Positions 7,892-47,298 of a stretch of DNA of 47,714 nucleotides are shown piece after piece. The notes beneath the pieces were generated by a model, which made no database searches, was not told the origin of the DNA, and saw nothing but the letters and a program-made list of their open reading frames with translations. The translations under genes and the position numbers were made by a program. Positions within the stretch are counted from its first letter, which is position 1. Each line of letters begins with the position of its first letter. The DNA comes from a virus. The stretch is taken from positions 1 through 47,714 of IMG/VR virus record IMGVR_UViG_3300009551_000061. One strand, written 5' to 3'.

Positions 7892-10800
7892 ATGCCGGGC
7901 TTCGGCGATTGGGACCCGAACCTCCACCCACGGGGGTTCCACGGTCGTTTCATCAAGAAGTTCAAGCTGGCCCCTTGGCTTGACCATCTGCTGAAGTCCT
8001 CCACGCCCCGCACTTTCCAGAGCGACGGCCAGGCCGCCCAGTTCAACTTCAACTCTGCCCGTGTTCAGCCTGGTGGTGCGTTCAACGAGCTGGAGCTTCG
8101 CCGCCTACGCATGGACTGGGATGAAGCTGCTGACCATATGCGAGCCGGGGAAATTGATCCCCTGACTCAGCAGTACGTGGACATGGTTAGCAAGCGAATG
8201 CACCCCACCAAGGAAGGCCTGATCCTTGGTCGCACCTTCACCCCGGAAGCGTTGGGCCTTACCCCGCAACAGTTGAATGAGACTGATCCCAACGGGATCA
8301 TCCGTATGACCGGAAACACGATCACCGACAAGGCCTTCTCCCCCACCCACTTGGGCTCTGACATGTCCCATGGGCCGGGGAAGATCACCATGCGGATCGC
8401 GGTCCCCCAAGGCGTCAACGTTGCTCACATCGGTGAGAACCGTAACGACCGTGGCGTGCTCCTGGACAAGGATCAGAAGCTACTGGTGACCCGGGTCTAC
8501 CCGGACGGTTCCGGTGGCTGGTACATGACCGCCGTGGCCGAACCAAGCGGCGCCACCACCGGTACCCCCAATGAGATCGTGCAGGGTCGCAAGGGGGCCA
8601 ACCTCACCCCCGAGCAGCGGCAGGCCCGCATCGGTGGGCCCAGTGTCATGCCACAGCCGGCTGAGCCACCGCGTGCTGCGACGCAGCAAGCTGAGCTTGC
8701 GCCGGTCCAACAGCCTGGTGTGAGAGGTGTTGAGCCTGCACCCGCCGGACCGGCTCCGACCCCTGCCCGGCAAGCTGCCCGTGAGGCCCGTCGTGCCGGC
8801 TACCAGAAGGCCGTAGCCAACGAGCAGCAGCAGATCAACGCCCCGGCCCCGGTGGCCGCTCCGCCACCAGAGGCGGTCACCCCAACTCCCAGCCCGGCCC
8901 CACCGGCTGGCGTCGGGGAACGCACCGAGCCCGTGCACGGTCCCATCGGTGGCGTTCCCACCGAGGGTAAGAGTGCGTCGGAGATTGCCAACACCCCGGC
9001 CGAGGCACCTCCCGCTCCCGCTGCACCGGCCCCTCAGGCATCGGCCGCCAGTTTCAAGCAGGAGTTCCAGGGGCGTGGGCTTCAGTCGCCCACTGCCGGT
9101 CCGCAGCGCAAGGAGTTCAACGACGCCTACCTTGGTGTGACCGGGGGCAAGAAGGACCCTGCTGATGCTCTGCGGGAACTCGACGCGGACATTGAAAAGA
9201 ACAAGACCCTCCTCGCTGGACCCGAAGGCAAGGTTCCGCATGAGGAATTGCGGGCCAACGTCACCAAGCAGGAGAAGCTTGCCGACCTGATTGCCGAGCA
9301 CTTCAACACTCCTCGTGCGCACAAGCCTGAGACCGCTGCGCCGACTCCTGAGGCTGCCCCGGCTAAGAAGGGCTTCACCTCGGTCAAGGAACTGACCCCG
9401 TCGGAACGGTCCGCCTACGACAGCCTTGACCAAAGTGGACGGTCCAAGTATCTGGCCCGGCGTCGAGCTGGCCAGGAGCATGCCGCTGCGTTGACCGGTG
9501 CGAAAGGGGAGAAGGCCCCGGCTAAGGCTGCCGAGAAGGCGGCCCCGGCTCCAAAGGCTCCAGCTCCTACGTCTCAGACCGAGAAGAACGCTGCTGCTGC
9601 TGCCCGTCGTGCTGAGACCGGGCAGCAGAACCCCACCGTCAACCCGGTCAATATGAAGAAGGGTGACACGATCCTTGTCCGCAAGAACAAGGATGATAAG
9701 TGGGAGCGAACTACTACCAAGACTGGCGCCACGCCCATCACGGTTGATCGTGTCGAGATGCGCCAGGAGTCGGCGGGAAGTGTCTACAGGACTCCCCGGC
9801 GTGGTTACATAATCCACGGCAAGGACGCCGAGGGTAATGACATCAGCACCAAGTCCCATGCCGGGAATGTTGCCTTCCGGCGCCACGAGGAGAAGGCGCC
9901 ACGGGCCACCAAGGCAGCTAAGGCCGTACCGGAGAAGGCCCCCGAGGCGGCCAAGGCTGCCCCGGCCAAGGTTGCCAAGGTAGCTAAGGCTGCACCGGCC
10001 GCCAAGGCTGTCAGTGAGGTTCAGACCCGGGCCGACGAGGCTGGTCTGCCGAACACGGTGACGGCCCTGCGTCAGGCTGCCCGGGAGAAGAAGATCCGTG
10101 GCTTCTCCACCATGAACAAGGAGCAGTTGCAGCGGGCACTGCTCGGCGAGGAAGTGGGCACTGGCGGGAAGCTTGGGGCCATTGCCCCGGAGAAGCTGAC
10201 CCCCCACCTCCAGGCCGCCAAGTCTGGGCAGGAGGCAAATGCCCTCCTGGAGGAGCACACCGTTGCTGACCTCCGCGCCCTGGCGAAGCAGAACGGCATC
10301 AGCCTCAAGGGGACCACCACTAAGGACCGCATGAAGGATGCGATCCTGAAGGATCTTCGTGGTCCTGAGGGTGCTGCCCTTCGCCCGGAGAAGCCGCTGA
10401 CTTCCCTTGAAGAGGACATCAAGGGTGTCAAGGTTCCCGACGAGGCTAAGTCCCTTGTGGACGGTGTCAGTCCTGACGATCCCGACTCGCTACGCAACGC
10501 CTCCGATGAACTGGAGGCCATGGCCAAGACTGCGGAAAACCCCACCGACGCTGGCCGGCTTCAGAAGCTCAGCGACGCCATGGGCATGCGGGCCCAGATC
10601 ATCTCCGGTGTGGAGGCGGCGCCCCCCACCAAGAAGGCAACCAAGGCTGTCAAGAAGGCACTGCCGGCTAAGAAGCTGAGTGTCCACCAGGAGCGTGTCC
10701 GCAAGCAGCACATTGCTGACGGCATGGATGAGGCCGAGGCCCGGCGCCTGGCCGAGGAGGCGCCTACTCGGGCCCCGGCTGGTACTAAGGCTGCCACAGC

Positions 10801-13800
10801 CAAGCGTGTTGCGGAACGCAAAGCTTCCTCCCTTCCTGGCCCACGGGCTGAGGGGGAAGCTGGCCCCAAGCTGTCCGCTCCTAAGCGGGCAGCGAAGGTT
10901 GCACCTACCCCGGTAGCTCGGGAGAACCTTAGTGGCCCTGCTAACCGTCCAGGCAAGGGGCAGCTTGGTCCCAACCTGACTCCGGAAGAGAAGATCCAGG
11001 CCCTGGGTCCTGGTGGCCGTACCACGCCACGTGCACCCAAGGTCAATGAGGCCGATCTCAAGGCCCGGTTGACGCGCGGCAAGCTCCGTAGTGCCGACGT
11101 TGTGCCCGGTGACCGGGTCATGGTGGAGCGAGACTCCGAGGGTCAAGTTGTTCCGGAGATGATTCGTGGCGACAAGGCCGCGTTCCCGGTCGACGTGGTT
11201 GGTCGTAACGAGGATGGCAGTCTCCATGTCCGTGACTCTGCGGGCAATGAGATGGACACGGTGCCACCGGCCAAAAGTGGCACCAGCTACCGGCCAGAGA
11301 GTCCGACCGAGGCGCGTCGTGCTGCTAAGGCTGCCGCTCCTGGAGAGCAGCCCACTCGTGGCCGTAGCCAGGCGGAGGTCCTTCGGCAGGGCAAGCTCGG
11401 TGGGGCACAGCTTGCTCCCGATGCCGCTGAGATCAAGCGGGTCCTTCGGGAGCAGACGGAGAACCCGATCTCCCGCGAGGAAGCTGATGGCCTGCTCCGT
11501 GGCCTGACCAAGGCTCAGCTCATGGACCAGGCTGATGGCCTCAACATTCCGCGCGCCAGAACATTGACCAAGGACAATCTGCGCCGGGAGATTGTTGACG
11601 CCACCGTAGGCCGAAAGATCGATTCCCAGGCAACCCGTGGATTCAAGGGACCGCTGATCGCCAAGGAGGCCGTTGCTCAGGCCGAGAAGGCTCATCCTGA
11701 GGCGCCCCCAGTGGCAGTCAAGGCAACCCGGGCCAAGGTGGCCAAGGCTGTTCCTGATGGGTCTGTGGGTACCCGTGGTGGCGAACTGATCGACAACGCG
11801 GAACGTGGTCTCCAGTTCGAGGATGGCTGGAAGAAGGCCAAGATCCCCGATGTTGGGGATCCGTCCATGCAGGAGATCCACGACGACGTGTCAGCCGGTC
11901 GCATCTCCCCAGAGGAGGGCATCCGGCGCATGGAGACCGAGGTCTCCATGAACAACGAGGAACTGGACTCGCTGCGCCGCGACCTTCGAGCCCGTGAAGG
12001 TGAGAGCGGCCCCGATGTTGACCAACTCAAGAGTGAAGTTGGCGCCCTGGAGCGGAAGATCGCCGCTCAGGAGAAGGCCTCCACCTTCATGCACCAGCAC
12101 TTCGGCAAGGAGCGGGTGACCGTTCCTGAGGTCCAGGGCAAAATCATCGACGCCCAAGGCCAGAAGTGGTGGGACAACCTCAACAAGGAAGACCCGGAAG
12201 AGTTCCGTCGGATCCTCAAGGAGGAGACCGGCCTGGATGCTAAGGGCGGCAACGCTCAGGAGATTTTCCAGGACGCTCTCAAGCAGACCATCAAGGGAGA
12301 ACTGGACAAGCGGGCCGCTGCCAAGGAAGCCCGCAACGCCCAGAAGGCCACCAGGGAAGCAGCTAAAGCCAAGGCTGTTGAGGAGTTCAGTCCCGGTGGG
12401 GCCAAGCACCTGGACGCTAAGGCCATCGCCGGAGACCTGAACATCGACCAGAGACACATTGATGCGGCTCAAGGTGATCTGAACCAGGGCATGAGCCCGG
12501 CCAAGGCTGCCCAGAACATCCGCGATCGCGCCCAAAGAATGTCTGACGCCAATGCCATCATCAATGGCGGGGTGGATGCCAGTCGCACTTCTCCCGAGCA
12601 TAAGGCCGAACTGGACCAGAAGTACCGTGCTGGCACGGAGGAGGTCGCTAACCTTCGTCAGCTTGCGGACAAGGTCGCCGAAGCTAAGCGTCCCCGGGTA
12701 ACCCGCACCCCGGCTAAGGCTGCTGCTGAGGACCTGGCCAAGGCCAAGGAGACGGTCAAGGAACCGGCCGCCAAGAAGGCCGTGGCCCGCGCTGAGGCTG
12801 CGGTCAAGGAGGTCGGGGACGAGGCTGAGAAGTTGAAGCAGCGTGTCCTGGACCGTCACCAGAAGGCTTGGGACGCCTCCACCACACGCGCTGAGGCTGA
12901 GCAGGCGGCCACCAACATGCGCCAGGATCTGCTGCTGTCTGAGATCCGCGACTGGGCTAAGCCCATGGGCATCACCGGCCGGTCGAAGGATGACATCCTC
13001 AAGAAGGCGGTGGAGCGCCGGTTCGGTAGTGGCGGGGATGTCATCAGTGGGGCGCCCGGGGCTCGACCGGAAGTTGCGCGGGTCAACTCGCGGATGGAGG
13101 CGGCGAACCGGGTGAAGAACATTGGATCAACACTGTCCACTGTGGATGAACTGCTGAACAATGGGGCCAGCGAACGGGCTGTGAGCCACCGTGTCCGTGG
13201 CTCGGAACTAGGGCGCAGCGACCCAGAGCTGGCTCAGCGCATCGAGCGGGCAGCCGTGGCCGGAGACCAGGCAGAGCTGGACCGGATCGCCTCGGAGCAC
13301 GGCCTGACTCGTAACACTGGCCCGGTCGGAACTGTGGAGCCCTTCGAGCCTGGAAAGCACCGGGGTATGGGCGACTCGTCACCTCGTAAGGGGCAGGCGG
13401 TTCAGGTCATCAGCCCCGGATACCAGGGCACCGTGGAAGGTCGGGCCTTCCAGGCCCACCCAGCCGGGGTTCTTGAGGCCACCCCGGAGCAGAAACAGCA
13501 GATGCTTGATCGCCTGGCCGGGGAACGGCGTGATGCGATTGCCAGCCTGCCAGCGGAGACCCGGGCGGCTGTCATTGCCCGGTCACAACGCCAGCGGGAG
13601 AACAACGCTGCAATCCGAGCTGGCAAGCGGACCCCGGCGGCTGCCCCCGTTGCTGAGCTTCCGACCAACAAGCAGGAGGAGGTTGCTGCCAACCTGGCCC
13701 GGCTCAATGCAGCCAAGGCTGTGAAGGCAGCTCCAAAGGCCGAGGCGGGTACTCCCACCTCTCGTGCGTTTGAGTCCCAGTTGGCCAATGCCACCACTGT

Positions 13801-15187
13801 GGACCAGGGTCGTCACATCCTGGAAAGCATGGGCAACAAGAAAGGCCCGTATCAGGAACTTGCCAAGCAGGTGGGCATTGAGGTTCGGCCCAGTGACAGC
13901 ATCGCGAAGCTGCGAGAGAACATCCTGCGTCGCACCGTGACAACCCGCCTGGAGCATGCGGCCTATGTGCGCCTTGGTGGATCGAATCCTTCTGAGATTA
14001 CGAAGACTGCCATTGCTGCCGAGCGTGAAGCCCGAGCCGCCAAGAAGGCGGCCCCCAGTGCCGGTGAAGGCGCAGCGGTCCTGGCTAAGGGTGGATTCAA
14101 TGAGCCCTTCATCTCGGATAAAGGACCGGTGAAGAGTGTCCGTGTCCGGTTCGACGAGGGCACGAGCGCTGCCACCTTTGGCCGGGGCGATGACCTGAAG
14201 GCGCCTAACGGTAGATGGTCCGCCGATCAGGGTCTCATTCACATGGATTCCGAGATTGGTGGACTGTGGAAAGACCTTGCCAGCGATGACCGTGTGTCAA
14301 CGCCGGATCTCAACAAGATCACTGAGATTGGCCAGCAACTGCACGATGGGAAAATCGACGTACCTACGGCCCGGGCTCTGATCCGCGACATCAAGCCTGG
14401 CAATGCTCAGGTCCGGGAGCGGATCAACCAGGCCGTAGCCGGCTTGGATACCAAGCCGAGCAAGCTTGACCTCCCGGATAACACGCCGGCTCAGGTGCGG
14501 GACTTCCTGGAGAAGGTGAACGAGATCCCGGCCTACCACGACCGCACAAATGTTCGTGAGGGCAAGACCCCCATGCAACACCTCCTGGATTCGGTAAAGA
14601 TCATCTCCAAGGGGGACCGAAACGACCCGAACTACGACGAGGCCCAGCGCGCCATTGAACACGCAAGTGGTCGTGTTCATGAGTCGGGCGATGGCGTGTA
14701 CTGGGCTCAGCGTGAATCCGGGAAGCTGTCACCCATCAACCAGAGCGCCGAGGTGCGCAAGTGGATCCGTGGTGGTGGAGCAACCCCGGCAGCTCCCGAG
14801 CCGGCCAAGGCCACCCCGGCACCGGCTAAGGCTGCCAAGAAGGCGGCTAAGGCTGCCCCAACGGTGACCAAGGCGGAGCTACGTTCCCCGGTGCCCAAGG
14901 CTGGTAACGAGGCTCCGGCCGCCCCCACGGCCAACGTGACGGCGAAGGGTCTCACCCCGGGTGAGGGCGTCCCGGTCAGCACGTTCCTGACCCTTCAGAA
15001 CAGACTGGGCAGTGGTAAGAGTCAGGACCTGCGCACACTGGATCGGTACGCCCGGGTGCCCGGGGACTACAGCAAGGTCCCTGACCTGTATCGCAAGATC
15101 CTTCAGCAGTTGCAACAGGCTGGGGTTGGGCCTGATGATCCTGTACGTAAGGCTTTCGAAAAGTGGTTTACTGACCACTTCAGCTAA
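7892..15187 (+). CDS. Giant head-module protein: ART-like N-terminus, SAP-like and Ala/Lys-rich repeats
   Basis: This 2431-residue frame is uninterrupted. Residues about 60-220 look like an ADP-ribosyltransferase fold: LILGRTF (first strand Arg, about 113), DKAFSPTHL (about 147) where the family has S-T-S, and NDRGVLLDKDQKLLVTRV (about 186) where the family has E-x-E before V-L-L. The last position is Gly instead of the catalytic Glu. Residues 255-390 are Pro/Ala-rich. Possible SH3-like barrels sit near 582-667 and 1063-1140. Five helix-turn segments resemble SAP/Rho-N DNA-binding repeats (about 709-753, 767-825, 1193-1246, 1677-1713, 1970-2023). A coiled coil is likely at 1330-1397. Many tracts have the composition of histone H1 (KAAPAKAAK type). 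It is probably packaged inside the head or ejected with DNA; this is inference. Confidence 0.85.
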   Translation: MPGFGDWDPNLHPRGFHGRFIKKFKLAPWLDHLLKSSTPRTFQSDGQAAQFNFNSARVQPGGAFNELELRRLRMDWDEAADHMRAGEIDPLTQQYVDMVSKRMHPTKEGLILGRTFTPEALGLTPQQLNETDPNGIIRMTGNTITDKAFSPTHLGSDMSHGPGKITMRIAVPQGVNVAHIGENRNDRGVLLDKDQKLLVTRVYPDGSGGWYMTAVAEPSGATTGTPNEIVQGRKGANLTPEQRQARIGGPSVMPQPAEPPRAATQQAELAPVQQPGVRGVEPAPAGPAPTPARQAAREARRAGYQKAVANEQQQINAPAPVAAPPPEAVTPTPSPAPPAGVGERTEPVHGPIGGVPTEGKSASEIANTPAEAPPAPAAPAPQASAASFKQEFQGRGLQSPTAGPQRKEFNDAYLGVTGGKKDPADALRELDADIEKNKTLLAGPEGKVPHEELRANVTKQEKLADLIAEHFNTPRAHKPETAAPTPEAAPAKKGFTSVKELTPSERSAYDSLDQSGRSKYLARRRAGQEHAAALTGAKGEKAPAKAAEKAAPAPKAPAPTSQTEKNAAAAARRAETGQQNPTVNPVNMKKGDTILVRKNKDDKWERTTTKTGATPITVDRVEMRQESAGSVYRTPRRGYIIHGKDAEGNDISTKSHAGNVAFRRHEEKAPRATKAAKAVPEKAPEAAKAAPAKVAKVAKAAPAAKAVSEVQTRADEAGLPNTVTALRQAAREKKIRGFSTMNKEQLQRALLGEEVGTGGKLGAIAPEKLTPHLQAAKSGQEANALLEEHTVADLRALAKQNGISLKGTTTKDRMKDAILKDLRGPEGAALRPEKPLTSLEEDIKGVKVPDEAKSLVDGVSPDDPDSLRNASDELEAMAKTAENPTDAGRLQKLSDAMGMRAQIISGVEAAPPTKKATKAVKKALPAKKLSVHQERVRKQHIADGMDEAEARRLAEEAPTRAPAGTKAATAKRVAERKASSLPGPRAEGEAGPKLSAPKRAAKVAPTPVARENLSGPANRPGKGQLGPNLTPEEKIQALGPGGRTTPRAPKVNEADLKARLTRGKLRSADVVPGDRVMVERDSEGQVVPEMIRGDKAAFPVDVVGRNEDGSLHVRDSAGNEMDTVPPAKSGTSYRPESPTEARRAAKAAAPGEQPTRGRSQAEVLRQGKLGGAQLAPDAAEIKRVLREQTENPISREEADGLLRGLTKAQLMDQADGLNIPRARTLTKDNLRREIVDATVGRKIDSQATRGFKGPLIAKEAVAQAEKAHPEAPPVAVKATRAKVAKAVPDGSVGTRGGELIDNAERGLQFEDGWKKAKIPDVGDPSMQEIHDDVSAGRISPEEGIRRMETEVSMNNEELDSLRRDLRAREGESGPDVDQLKSEVGALERKIAAQEKASTFMHQHFGKERVTVPEVQGKIIDAQGQKWWDNLNKEDPEEFRRILKEETGLDAKGGNAQEIFQDALKQTIKGELDKRAAAKEARNAQKATREAAKAKAVEEFSPGGAKHLDAKAIAGDLNIDQRHIDAAQGDLNQGMSPAKAAQNIRDRAQRMSDANAIINGGVDASRTSPEHKAELDQKYRAGTEEVANLRQLADKVAEAKRPRVTRTPAKAAAEDLAKAKETVKEPAAKKAVARAEAAVKEVGDEAEKLKQRVLDRHQKAWDASTTRAEAEQAATNMRQDLLLSEIRDWAKPMGITGRSKDDILKKAVERRFGSGGDVISGAPGARPEVARVNSRMEAANRVKNIGSTLSTVDELLNNGASERAVSHRVRGSELGRSDPELAQRIERAAVAGDQAELDRIASEHGLTRNTGPVGTVEPFEPGKHRGMGDSSPRKGQAVQVISPGYQGTVEGRAFQAHPAGVLEATPEQKQQMLDRLAGERRDAIASLPAETRAAVIARSQRQRENNAAIRAGKRTPAAAPVAELPTNKQEEVAANLARLNAAKAVKAAPKAEAGTPTSRAFESQLANATTVDQGRHILESMGNKKGPYQELAKQVGIEVRPSDSIAKLRENILRRTVTTRLEHAAYVRLGGSNPSEITKTAIAAEREARAAKKAAPSAGEGAAVLAKGGFNEPFISDKGPVKSVRVRFDEGTSAATFGRGDDLKAPNGRWSADQGLIHMDSEIGGLWKDLASDDRVSTPDLNKITEIGQQLHDGKIDVPTARALIRDIKPGNAQVRERINQAVAGLDTKPSKLDLPDNTPAQVRDFLEKVNEIPAYHDRTNVREGKTPMQHLLDSVKIISKGDRNDPNYDEAQRAIEHASGRVHESGDGVYWAQRESGKLSPINQSAEVRKWIRGGGATPAAPEPAKATPAPAKAAKKAAKAAPTVTKAELRSPVPKAGNEAPAAPTANVTAKGLTPGEGVPVSTFLTLQNRLGSGKSQDLRTLDRYARVPGDYSKVPDLYRKILQQLQQAGVGPDDPVRKAFEKWFTDHFS

Positions 15188-45154: not shown

Positions 45155-45430
45155 CTAGGCCGCTTCTTGCTCGCGACGTCGAAGCCTGCGACCCTCCTCC
45201 ACGAGCCGGGCCACGGTCCCCGGGCGGGCACCGATCGTCTCGGCCAGCTTGGTGGTCGAAAACTCACCAGACTCAACCAGCGCCACAGCGGACAGGCGCC
45301 GCGTGTTCGCTAACTCGGTCAGGGTGTCCCGCATGATCCTGGTGATCACAGAACTCACCAGCACGATCTTGTTCGGCCCCACCTCCGCATCAATCTGATC
45401 CCAGAGCACTTCCTCCCAACTCCGGTCCAT
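45155..45430 (-). CDS. Small helix-turn-helix protein, 91 residues
   Basis: The ATG has a good Shine-Dalgarno, CGGAGG. The N-terminal 30 residues include IVLVSSVITRIMRDTLTELA, a helix pair, and residues about 57-80 (STTKLAETIGARPGTVARLV) are a helix-turn-helix with a typical A-E-x-x-G-A-R-x-x-T-V-x-R turn. It ends in a basic run. It is likely a DNA-binding regulator, as found in many actinophages. Its upstream neighbour overlaps it by 41 bases. Confidence 0.7.
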   Translation of the reverse strand: MDRSWEEVLWDQIDAEVGPNKIVLVSSVITRIMRDTLTELANTRRLSAVALVESGEFSTTKLAETIGARPGTVARLVEEGRRLRRREQEAA

Positions 45431-45593
45431 TGGTGCCTCCGTTCAGTTCTTGGATTCGGTCGCGTAGCGACTCCACCGTTTCCAGGGAGATATCCCTCCC
45501 GTCGGACCAAGCATAAAGATCACCTTCCACCCGTTCAAGACGGAAGCTAGTTGCAGCGCCGCAACTACGCGGCTCTCGGGAAGGGGAGGGCAT
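45390..45593 (-). CDS. Hypothetical protein, 67 residues
   Basis: The ATG at 45593 follows AAAGGAA, a good Shine-Dalgarno; longer starts are less likely. The protein has TSFRLERVEGDLYAWSDGRD then SLETVESLRDRIQELNGG, a beta pair followed by a helix. It overlaps the next gene by 41 bases. No family recognised. Confidence 0.55.
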   Translation of the reverse strand: MPSPSREPRSCGAATSFRLERVEGDLYAWSDGRDISLETVESLRDRIQELNGGTNGPELGGSALGSD

Positions 45594-46038
45594 CAGGTTC
45601 CTTTCGTAGCAACGGTGGTACGTGCAACGGGTCATCGACCCAGTCGACCTGTAATGTCAAAATCCTCGCCCGCTTCGCCTTGTCACGGCAATCCACCGTT
45701 CCTTTGCTTGTCGGGTGCATGAACGCCACACACAGGTCCGCTCCAGCGGTCACCATGGCTGCGTTACGCAGCGGCCCGGCAGCCTTGCCGTAGTGGACCC
45801 AGTCGGCTGGGAATTTGAGGGGCTCCGGCAGTTCCACGCCCAGACGCATCGGGGCGTTGACAGACCACCACTGTTGGGTCTCCTGGTCTGCGCCAGCGCC
45901 GTCCCCGTGGATGAACTGGATCTCTCGGTGTCCACCGATGGAGGCGAGGGTCAGGATGTGATCAAGAACCAGGTGCAATCGATTTACATTTATCGTTGAT
46001 CCGGTCCAGTGTCTCCACCCAGTGGTAATGACTCTCAT
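45565..46038 (-). CDS. SLOG-family protein (YspA/DUF2493-like)
   Basis: This 157-residue protein has VITTGWRHW at residues 3-11, FIHGDGAGADQETQQWW (about 42-58) and GPLRNAAMVTAGADLCVAFM (about 88-107) followed by SKGTVDCRDKAK, the Rossmann-like pattern of the SLOG superfamily, which senses nucleotides or nucleic-acid ligands. Many phages carry such a gene of unknown exact role; ligand sensing or defence-related tasks have been suggested for the superfamily. It lies next to two repressor-like genes. Confidence 0.8.
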   Translation of the reverse strand: MRVITTGWRHWTGSTINVNRLHLVLDHILTLASIGGHREIQFIHGDGAGADQETQQWWSVNAPMRLGVELPEPLKFPADWVHYGKAAGPLRNAAMVTAGADLCVAFMHPTSKGTVDCRDKAKRARILTLQVDWVDDPLHVPPLLRKEPDALPFPRAA

Positions 46039-46319: not shown

Positions 46320-46590
46320 TCATCTCCTCTTTGGGAACAATCTTCAGGTCATATCCAAACGCCTGGAGAATCTTCCGGACAGTTGCCATTGAGACATGTC
46401 CCCCACGTTCTCCCTTGGAAATGGTGGAAGATCCACATTCAACGACTCTTGAAAGTTCGTCGATGCCAATTCCATTCTTGACCCGCAGATCATGGATAAA
46501 GATCCAGGTCGGATCAACAGCATTGTGATCGAATTCCCCTCGGAATGTTCCCAGGGGTGTGAGATAGTTAGTCTTGACTTTCTCCGACAT
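46309..46590 (-). CDS. XRE-family DNA-binding protein 2
   Basis: This 93-residue protein has the same plan as the gene downstream of it: DPTWIFIHDLRVKNGIGIDE (about 26-45), then VECGSSTISKGERGGH, and TVRKILQAFGYDLKIV. The shared D-P-x-W, S-T-x-S-x-G-E-R-G and C-terminal helix show a duplicated pair. Its base composition is lower in GC (about 43-53 percent in several 60-base lines) than its neighbours (up to about 67 percent), so it may have come from another source. Confidence 0.85.
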   Translation of the reverse strand: MSEKVKTNYLTPLGTFRGEFDHNAVDPTWIFIHDLRVKNGIGIDELSRVVECGSSTISKGERGGHVSMATVRKILQAFGYDLKIVPKEEMNDV

Positions 46591-47122
46591 TTCTTCCTCC
46601 GTCAGTCAGCACCCGAAGTGCCAATTCCTTCCGTTCTAGGACACGTGAAATTTGCTCGGGCATGGGCCAACCCAGAGTGATCAACCTGTTGATGGCGGCC
46701 ATGACCGCAGTCGCCCCCTGGCCTTCCATCACGGCACCGTCCAGCACCTCATCCACAACCTCCCGGAAGCCCTTGTCCTGGGTCAGGAGGGGCTCCAGGG
46801 TGTCCAGCACGATGCCCAGAGCCACCCCGGTGATGGTCCACCGGTAGACCTGCGGCATGGTGCGGTCGTCGTTGACGTGCACGTGGGGCTCGGCGCAGTG
46901 CTCGGCACAACCTCGCCGCATGAAGTCCTTCATCGGCTTGGAGGTCATGGCCTCCGGTTTGGTGCCAACCATGGCACCCATCTCCCGGATGATGCCGGGG
47001 TACCGGGACTCGACCATGAGCACGTACTGGGGGGTGGCTCGCTGTTGGTTCTTCTTGGTGTAGATCTTGCCCTTGAGATCAACAATCCCAGCCATCCATC
47101 CCAGCTTCGCTGGTGTGATCAT
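46568..47122 (-). CDS. LAGLIDADG-like protein lacking the catalytic acid
   Basis: This 184-residue protein starts at ATG with AAGGAAAC upstream; longer frames to 47230 would overlap a zinc protein. Residues 9-20 (WMAGIVDLKGKI) follow the LAGLIDADG motif of homing endonucleases, with Asp15 kept but Lys17 in place of the catalytic acid (position 8 of the motif). Downstream, KNQQRATPQYVLMVESRYPG (25-44) and GAMVGTKPE fit the same fold, and RGCAEHCAEPHVHV (about 70-84) may bind metal. It is probably a DNA-binding protein without nuclease function; similar sequences are common in actinophages. Confidence 0.75.
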   Translation of the reverse strand: MITPAKLGWMAGIVDLKGKIYTKKNQQRATPQYVLMVESRYPGIIREMGAMVGTKPEAMTSKPMKDFMRRGCAEHCAEPHVHVNDDRTMPQVYRWTITGVALGIVLDTLEPLLTQDKGFREVVDEVLDGAVMEGQGATAVMAAINRLITLGWPMPEQISRVLERKELALRVLTDGGRNVGESQD

Positions 47123-47298
47123 CCTATGTTTCCTTCGCTTCTGCTGATGATCCCTCGTTCGGCCAGGAAGAGAGCCAGCCGGGCCATCTGCTCGGCGGCG
47201 TAGGCGGCGTACGTTCCCTCGCCGTAGCACTCGTCGCAGCCCTTCCCCTGCCCCTCACAGGAGGGGCAGGGGGTATCGCTAGACGGTGACGGGTGCAT
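47119..47298 (-). CDS. DnaJ-type zinc finger protein, 59 residues
   Basis: The ATG lies within the end of the upstream gene. Residues 11-28 have C-P-S-C-E-G-Q-G-K-G-C-D-E-C-Y-G-E-G, two C-x2-C-x-G-x-G type units as in the DnaJ zinc finger. The C-terminal half is an Ala-rich helix (YAAYAAEQMARLALFLAERG). Its stop overlaps the LAGLIDADG-like start (ATGA). A partner-binding role is inferred. The coding sequence includes a perfect 12-bp hairpin. Confidence 0.65.
   Translation of the reverse strand: MHPSPSSDTPCPSCEGQGKGCDECYGEGTYAAYAAEQMARLALFLAERGIISRSEGNIG
47245..47272. repeat. Perfect 12-bp inverted repeat inside the zinc finger gene
   Basis: CCCCTGCCCCTC (47245-47256) and GAGGGGCAGGGG (47261-47272) are exact reverse complements with a 4-base loop. 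It falls in the Cys/Gly codons of the zinc finger. No T-run follows on either strand, so it is not a typical terminator. Confidence 0.8.

Follow-up and report, generated by a model that had tools for sequence, protein, structure and literature searches.

The virus record analyzed here raises the question of what a LAGLIDADG protein does once the acid of its motif has been replaced. The window, meaning the whole 47,714-base stretch of this IMG/VR virus record, contains a minus-strand gene in which the motif reads WMAGIVDLKG. An earlier note, made from the DNA letters, read this gene as a homing endonuclease possibly domesticated by an actinophage in parallel to WhiA, in the company of repressor-like genes. 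Such a gene could be a decaying nuclease, a nuclease with altered chemistry, or a fold put to another use.

Results and discussion

The gene and its motif

The gene has an ATG start and coding-like codon usage. Its start overlaps the stop of the small upstream ORF by 4 bases (ATGA), and its 3' end overlaps the first HTH_3 gene by 23 bases. The ORF and its Lys17 are real and lie at exactly the coordinates that had been proposed (Table 1). The earlier note had said that a second motif with an intact acid would overturn its reading; the 184-residue protein has a single LAGLIDADG motif and no second one.

Table 1. Features of the gene and its neighborhood in the window.
Feature	Position	Strand	Basis or remark
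59-aa ORF, CxxCxGxGxGCxxCxGxG (DnaJ-type zinc-knuckle-like)	47119..47298	minus	Pfam: no match
LAGLIDADG-fold protein without catalytic acid	46568..47122	minus	184 aa; predicted fold and family alignment
Degenerate LAGLIDADG motif MAGIVDLKG, residues 10-18	47069..47095	minus	
Lys17 codon	47072-47074	minus	metal-binding acid replaced (I-CreI D20 equivalent)
Putative zinc site, Cys/His insertion RRGCAEHCAEPHVH, residues 69-82, C72-x2-H75-C76-x3-H80-x-H82	46877..46918	minus	
RWTITG, LAGLIDADG-fold strand 4, residues 94-99	46826..46843	minus	
Asp116 codon, equivalent of I-CreI active-site Lys98, charge reversed	46775..46777	minus	hhalign and column counts
HTH_3 (Xre/Cro-like) protein, 93 aa	46309..46590	minus	Pfam HTH_3 3.6e-05
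Second HTH_3 protein, 94 aa	46035..46319	minus	Pfam HTH_3 5.6e-05
SLOG-like (YspA/cpYpsA-related) protein	45565..46038	minus	phrog_289 1.5e-20
91-aa protein	45155..45430	minus	downstream in L044 too, 48% identity

A family without the acid

Single-sequence searches of Pfam, PHROGs, the PDB, cultured phages, viral contigs and bacterial genomes returned nothing useful. A degenerate DNA pattern built on the conserved GC.EHC...H.H stretch recovered about 20 relatives from viral contigs, and further DNA patterns and a profile search enlarged the family; the acid codon was left free in every search that built it. The family has at least 38 distinct members including the window protein, all from uncultured viral contigs. 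The acid position is occupied by Lys in 27 of the 38, by Arg in 7, and by Gln, His, Ile and Ser in one each. The earlier note had suggested checking whether the Lys is constant; what holds throughout is the loss of the acid, as Asp and Glu are never found and Lys or Arg fills the position in 34 members. The alignment used for the other positions covers 36 distinct members (Lys 25 and Arg 7 at the acid position), and the two later finds both have Lys.

Asp15, the non-catalytic residue that precedes the acid position, is kept in 35 of the 36 aligned members. Asp fills the Asp116 column in 21 of the 36 aligned members; only 2 members have Lys there. A charge pairing between positions 17 and 116 was considered, since Lys116 occurs only in two of the four members that lack Lys or Arg at 17, but the association (Fisher p 0.009) is uncorrected for relatedness and is not claimed.

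No family member was found in cultured phages, in plasmids or in one-per-species bacterial genomes. A Gordonia match at E ~2 was rejected as a cultured-phage member because it is antisense to an annotated gene. The open-licence literature searched holds no description of an acid-less LAGLIDADG-fold family with a Cys/His loop, and the family is previously unlabelled.

The Cys/His insertion

The hallmark of the family, which is absent from the earlier note, is an inserted Cys/His stretch that separates strand 3 from strand 4 of the LAGLIDADG sheet (model strands 57-59 and 92-98). C72, H75 and C76 are present in 36 of 36 aligned members, H80 in 35 and H82 in 34. Several searches required this motif, so an unbiased count comes from the eight members found by an N-terminal pattern (L042-L049), of which all eight have C72, H75 and C76 and seven have both H80 and H82. 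Position 74 is acidic (E/D) in 33 of 36 members. The loop is preceded by two Arg, and Arg69 is near-invariant. The pattern of residues suggests that the insertion is probably zinc-binding. It is the least confident portion of the core AlphaFold2 model (block pLDDT 69-79).

Predicted structure

AlphaFold2 predictions from 19 and then 36 sequences gave a mean pLDDT of 88 and then 91, with a pTM of 0.80 and then 0.82. The best PDB matches to the predicted model in Foldseek are I-MsoI (3.4e-05), I-CvuI and I-CreI. VIA comparison of the model resulted in a Z of 11.1 for I-CreI (rmsd 4.6, 108 residues), 10.7 for I-CvuI (rmsd 3.9, 107 residues), 9.2 for the bI3 maturase (rmsd 3.0, 108 residues) and 8.4 for Streptomyces venezuelae WhiA (rmsd 3.6, 92 residues). 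The LAGLIDADG fold proposed in the earlier note is borne out by the prediction and these matches.

The family profile aligns by hhalign with I-CreI and I-MsoI, whose sequences were checked against their PDB entries, over residues 5-138 (E 0.0018), at a probability of 14.8% that is weak taken alone. The alignment places AGIVDLKGKI on AGFVDGDGSI, with K17 on I-CreI D20 and D116 on K98, which we take to be active-site residues. A profile search of the PDB aligns the same K17 column.

Acid-bearing relatives and selection

The phage profile phrog_5046 matches 17 of 19 family members (E up to 1), with a best value of 5e-08 and 0.014 for the window protein alone. Mycobacterium phage LittleE gp14, which is related to I-CreI and located in an intron of the capsid gene (PMC3706429), matches this profile at 3.4e-41. 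The profile is labelled "HNH endonuclease", which is misleading since it includes LAGLIDADG proteins such as LittleE gp14 (L050:9064-9597). It also matches proteins that are not of the HNH type and are unlikely to be nucleases.

A FastTree analysis of 167 columns places the acid-less family in one clade apart from its acid-bearing homologues with a support of 0.68, which suggests that the two are likely separate. Acid-bearing LAGLIDADG genes of Curtobacterium and Arthrobacter phages (L071, L076 and L077) also share a 4-base overlap with their upstream gene. They are located close to, or immediately ahead of, a recombination directionality factor, a conserved position that is unusual for a homing gene.

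The dN/dS ratio (Nei-Gojobori) is 0.075-0.116 among L002, L008 and L016 and 0.20 for L063 and L066; these values rest on close pairs, as synonymous sites are near-saturated in more distant ones. The low ratio indicates that the protein is maintained and is not the product of a decaying homing gene. The acid-less motif is not due to chance because it is family-wide, the predicted fold is that of LAGLIDADG proteins, and the relatives are under purifying selection. The family is thus firmly described as catalytic-acid-free, selected and of predicted LAGLIDADG fold, with an added Cys/His loop. Purifying selection is consistent with the domestication proposed in the earlier note, while the parallel with WhiA extends to the outcome only.

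Genomic context and host

The repressor-like neighbors of the window gene are real, as both match Pfam HTH_3, but they are not conserved partners. In the related locus L044 the SLOG-like orthologue, which matches Pfam YAcAr and is 43% identical to the SLOG-like protein of the window, directly follows the LAGLIDADG-fold gene, the orthologue of the 91-aa gene comes next, and both HTH genes are absent. The HTH genes must therefore have been acquired or lost separately from the LAGLIDADG-fold gene. HTH_3 matches occur in only 3 of the 88 near neighbors scanned, and two of those three are the window's own. An HTH_3-type gene lies at most two genes downstream in L064, and L029 has a weak one. An HTH gene was therefore rejected as a conserved partner.

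The neighbors of the family gene vary. Several related phages have the large terminase there, and other loci have TROVE, ParB-like and SLOG genes or small unknown genes. TROVE (Ro60/Rsr-like) genes directly follow the family gene on its downstream side, or lie near it, at L028:6509-8110, L029:6509-8131, L045:2-1573 and L011:2719-4404. Proteins with a von Willebrand A domain are encoded near the LAGLIDADG-fold genes of some relatives.

The assignment of the phage to actinobacterial hosts is not established. Among the best matches listed, the window terminase shares ~35-39% identity with terminases from phages whose hosts belong to several phyla, including phages of Gordonia, Microbacterium, Vibrio, Brevundimonas and others, so from sequence likeness the label of actinophage seems premature. 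A PHROG scan of 35 other window proteins detected no integrase and thus gave no support to a temperate lifestyle. On the minus strand, an Xre-type HTH ORF that resembles the HTH gene of L064 stays open across the joined ends of the window (47714|1). The record therefore probably represents a near-complete genome that is circularly permuted. The window also has a giant ORF of 2431 aa (7892-15187, plus strand), whose sole PHROG match is phrog_2724, a family of unknown function.

Interpretation

The gene may encode a non-cleaving, zinc-stabilised, homodimeric nucleic-acid-binding protein, most likely a DNA-binding regulator, and the probability of this reading is put at roughly 0.55 from the combined analysis. 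An ancestral single-motif LAGLIDADG nuclease would have lost its chemistry while the fold was kept for binding nucleic acid. A homodimer would be expected from the single motif and the I-CreI-like architecture. The Lys at the acid position would be unable to bind the catalytic metal ion and would lie close to the scissile phosphates; with the equivalent of Lys98 usually being Asp, the charge of the old active site would be reversed. The beta-sheet saddle of the predicted fold retains its overall shape, and a Cys/His loop that probably holds zinc would have been gained in the region of the sheet that homing endonucleases turn toward DNA, where it could supply DNA contacts or rigidity.

The fold, the charge reversal and the precedents of WhiA and a BamHI mutant argue for a non-cleaving DNA-binding regulator. 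The catalytic-deficient BamHI mutant D94N/E113K is reported to bind and protect its site without cutting (PMC8845596). The window gene appears to be coupled with the two HTH genes into an early-type minus-strand operon, which makes control of early phage transcription the most likely role; since these HTH neighbors are not conserved, gene context alone does not point to transcription control. Dimerisation, binding of zinc and DNA, and regulation are what we infer for this protein. It should not be classed among active homing endonucleases.

The main rival is a protein that reuses the fold to bind RNA, in the manner of a maturase or chaperone, which is unlikely. The bI3 LAGLIDADG maturase is among the structural matches given above and TROVE genes lie at or near four of the family loci, but these loci are a minority and no TROVE gene is known near the window gene. 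The window also has no Rfam intron match and its gene does not lie within another gene; an intron location was rejected on the lack of this match and because the gene overlaps its neighbors. It is quite unlikely that the protein is still a nuclease, encoded by a freestanding homing gene, whose chemistry has shifted to the Cys/His insertion or to another metal arrangement. The near-invariant H75, H80 and H82 and the acid at position 74 could make a metal site, and the varied contexts of the gene resemble those of a mobile gene. However, both active-site residues of the I-CreI type are gone, H80 and H82 are substituted in a few members, and the Cx2HCx3HxH loop is not recognized as a known nuclease motif by Pfam, PHROGs or NCBIfam.

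An accessory protein that uses the dimer scaffold to act on other proteins, as an anti-defence factor, a decoy or an inhibitor of a host nuclease or regulator, would fit the accessory-like distribution and varied neighbors of the gene. The saddle fold that has been kept and the near-invariant Arg69 point rather to nucleic acid, and this role is very unlikely. Loss of the catalytic acid is also the expected early step in the decay of a passively carried homing endonuclease gene. Such decay is hardly credible and was rejected on the dN/dS of ~0.07-0.2 in close pairs; it is further contradicted by conserved positions across 38 divergent members, by the conserved Lys or Arg replacement, and by a conserved Cys/His motif that was gained.

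Extending the regulator reading to the whole family, as an undescribed and widespread group of phage regulators that are zinc-stabilised, non-cleaving, homodimeric DNA binders with a reversed-charge active site and a lineage separate from WhiA, is a tentative proposal whose chances fall somewhat short of even. To our knowledge, few cases of homing endonucleases turned regulators are known, WhiA being the textbook one. If the proposal is true, the family would be an example independent of WhiA that comes in many natural variants, and it would offer a natural scaffold for DNA binders that resemble meganucleases but do not cut.

Comparison with known systems

The closest annotated phage family is phrog_5046, with LittleE gp14 and its relatives. 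The eight cultured-phage LAGLIDADG proteins compared (LittleE gp14 and seven reached via it) all carry EGEG and lack the Cys/His insertion. The family shares with I-CreI, I-MsoI and I-CvuI a predicted fold over residues 1-138 (Z 9-11), one motif per chain and the order of strands and helices. It differs from them in having Lys or Arg for the catalytic acid, mostly Asp at the Lys98 equivalent and the insertion between strands 3 and 4, at an identity of 17-20%.

The comparison with WhiA (DUF199) holds in outcome and outline, since both have a degenerate LAGLIDADG domain without metal-binding residues. The fold of WhiA has lost metal binding and is retained for non-nuclease work; its degenerate endonuclease domain is larger and is followed by a C-terminal HTH which does the binding (PMC3781837). 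In contrast, the window family has one motif, a Cys/His loop and no recognised HTH. Pfam found no HTH match in 19 family members scanned as full proteins, with the C-terminal helices 137-175 as part of them, and scans of Pfam and NCBIfam with E values up to 1 gave no WhiA model. The window protein is not a WhiA, but on this comparison it may work in a WhiA-like way.
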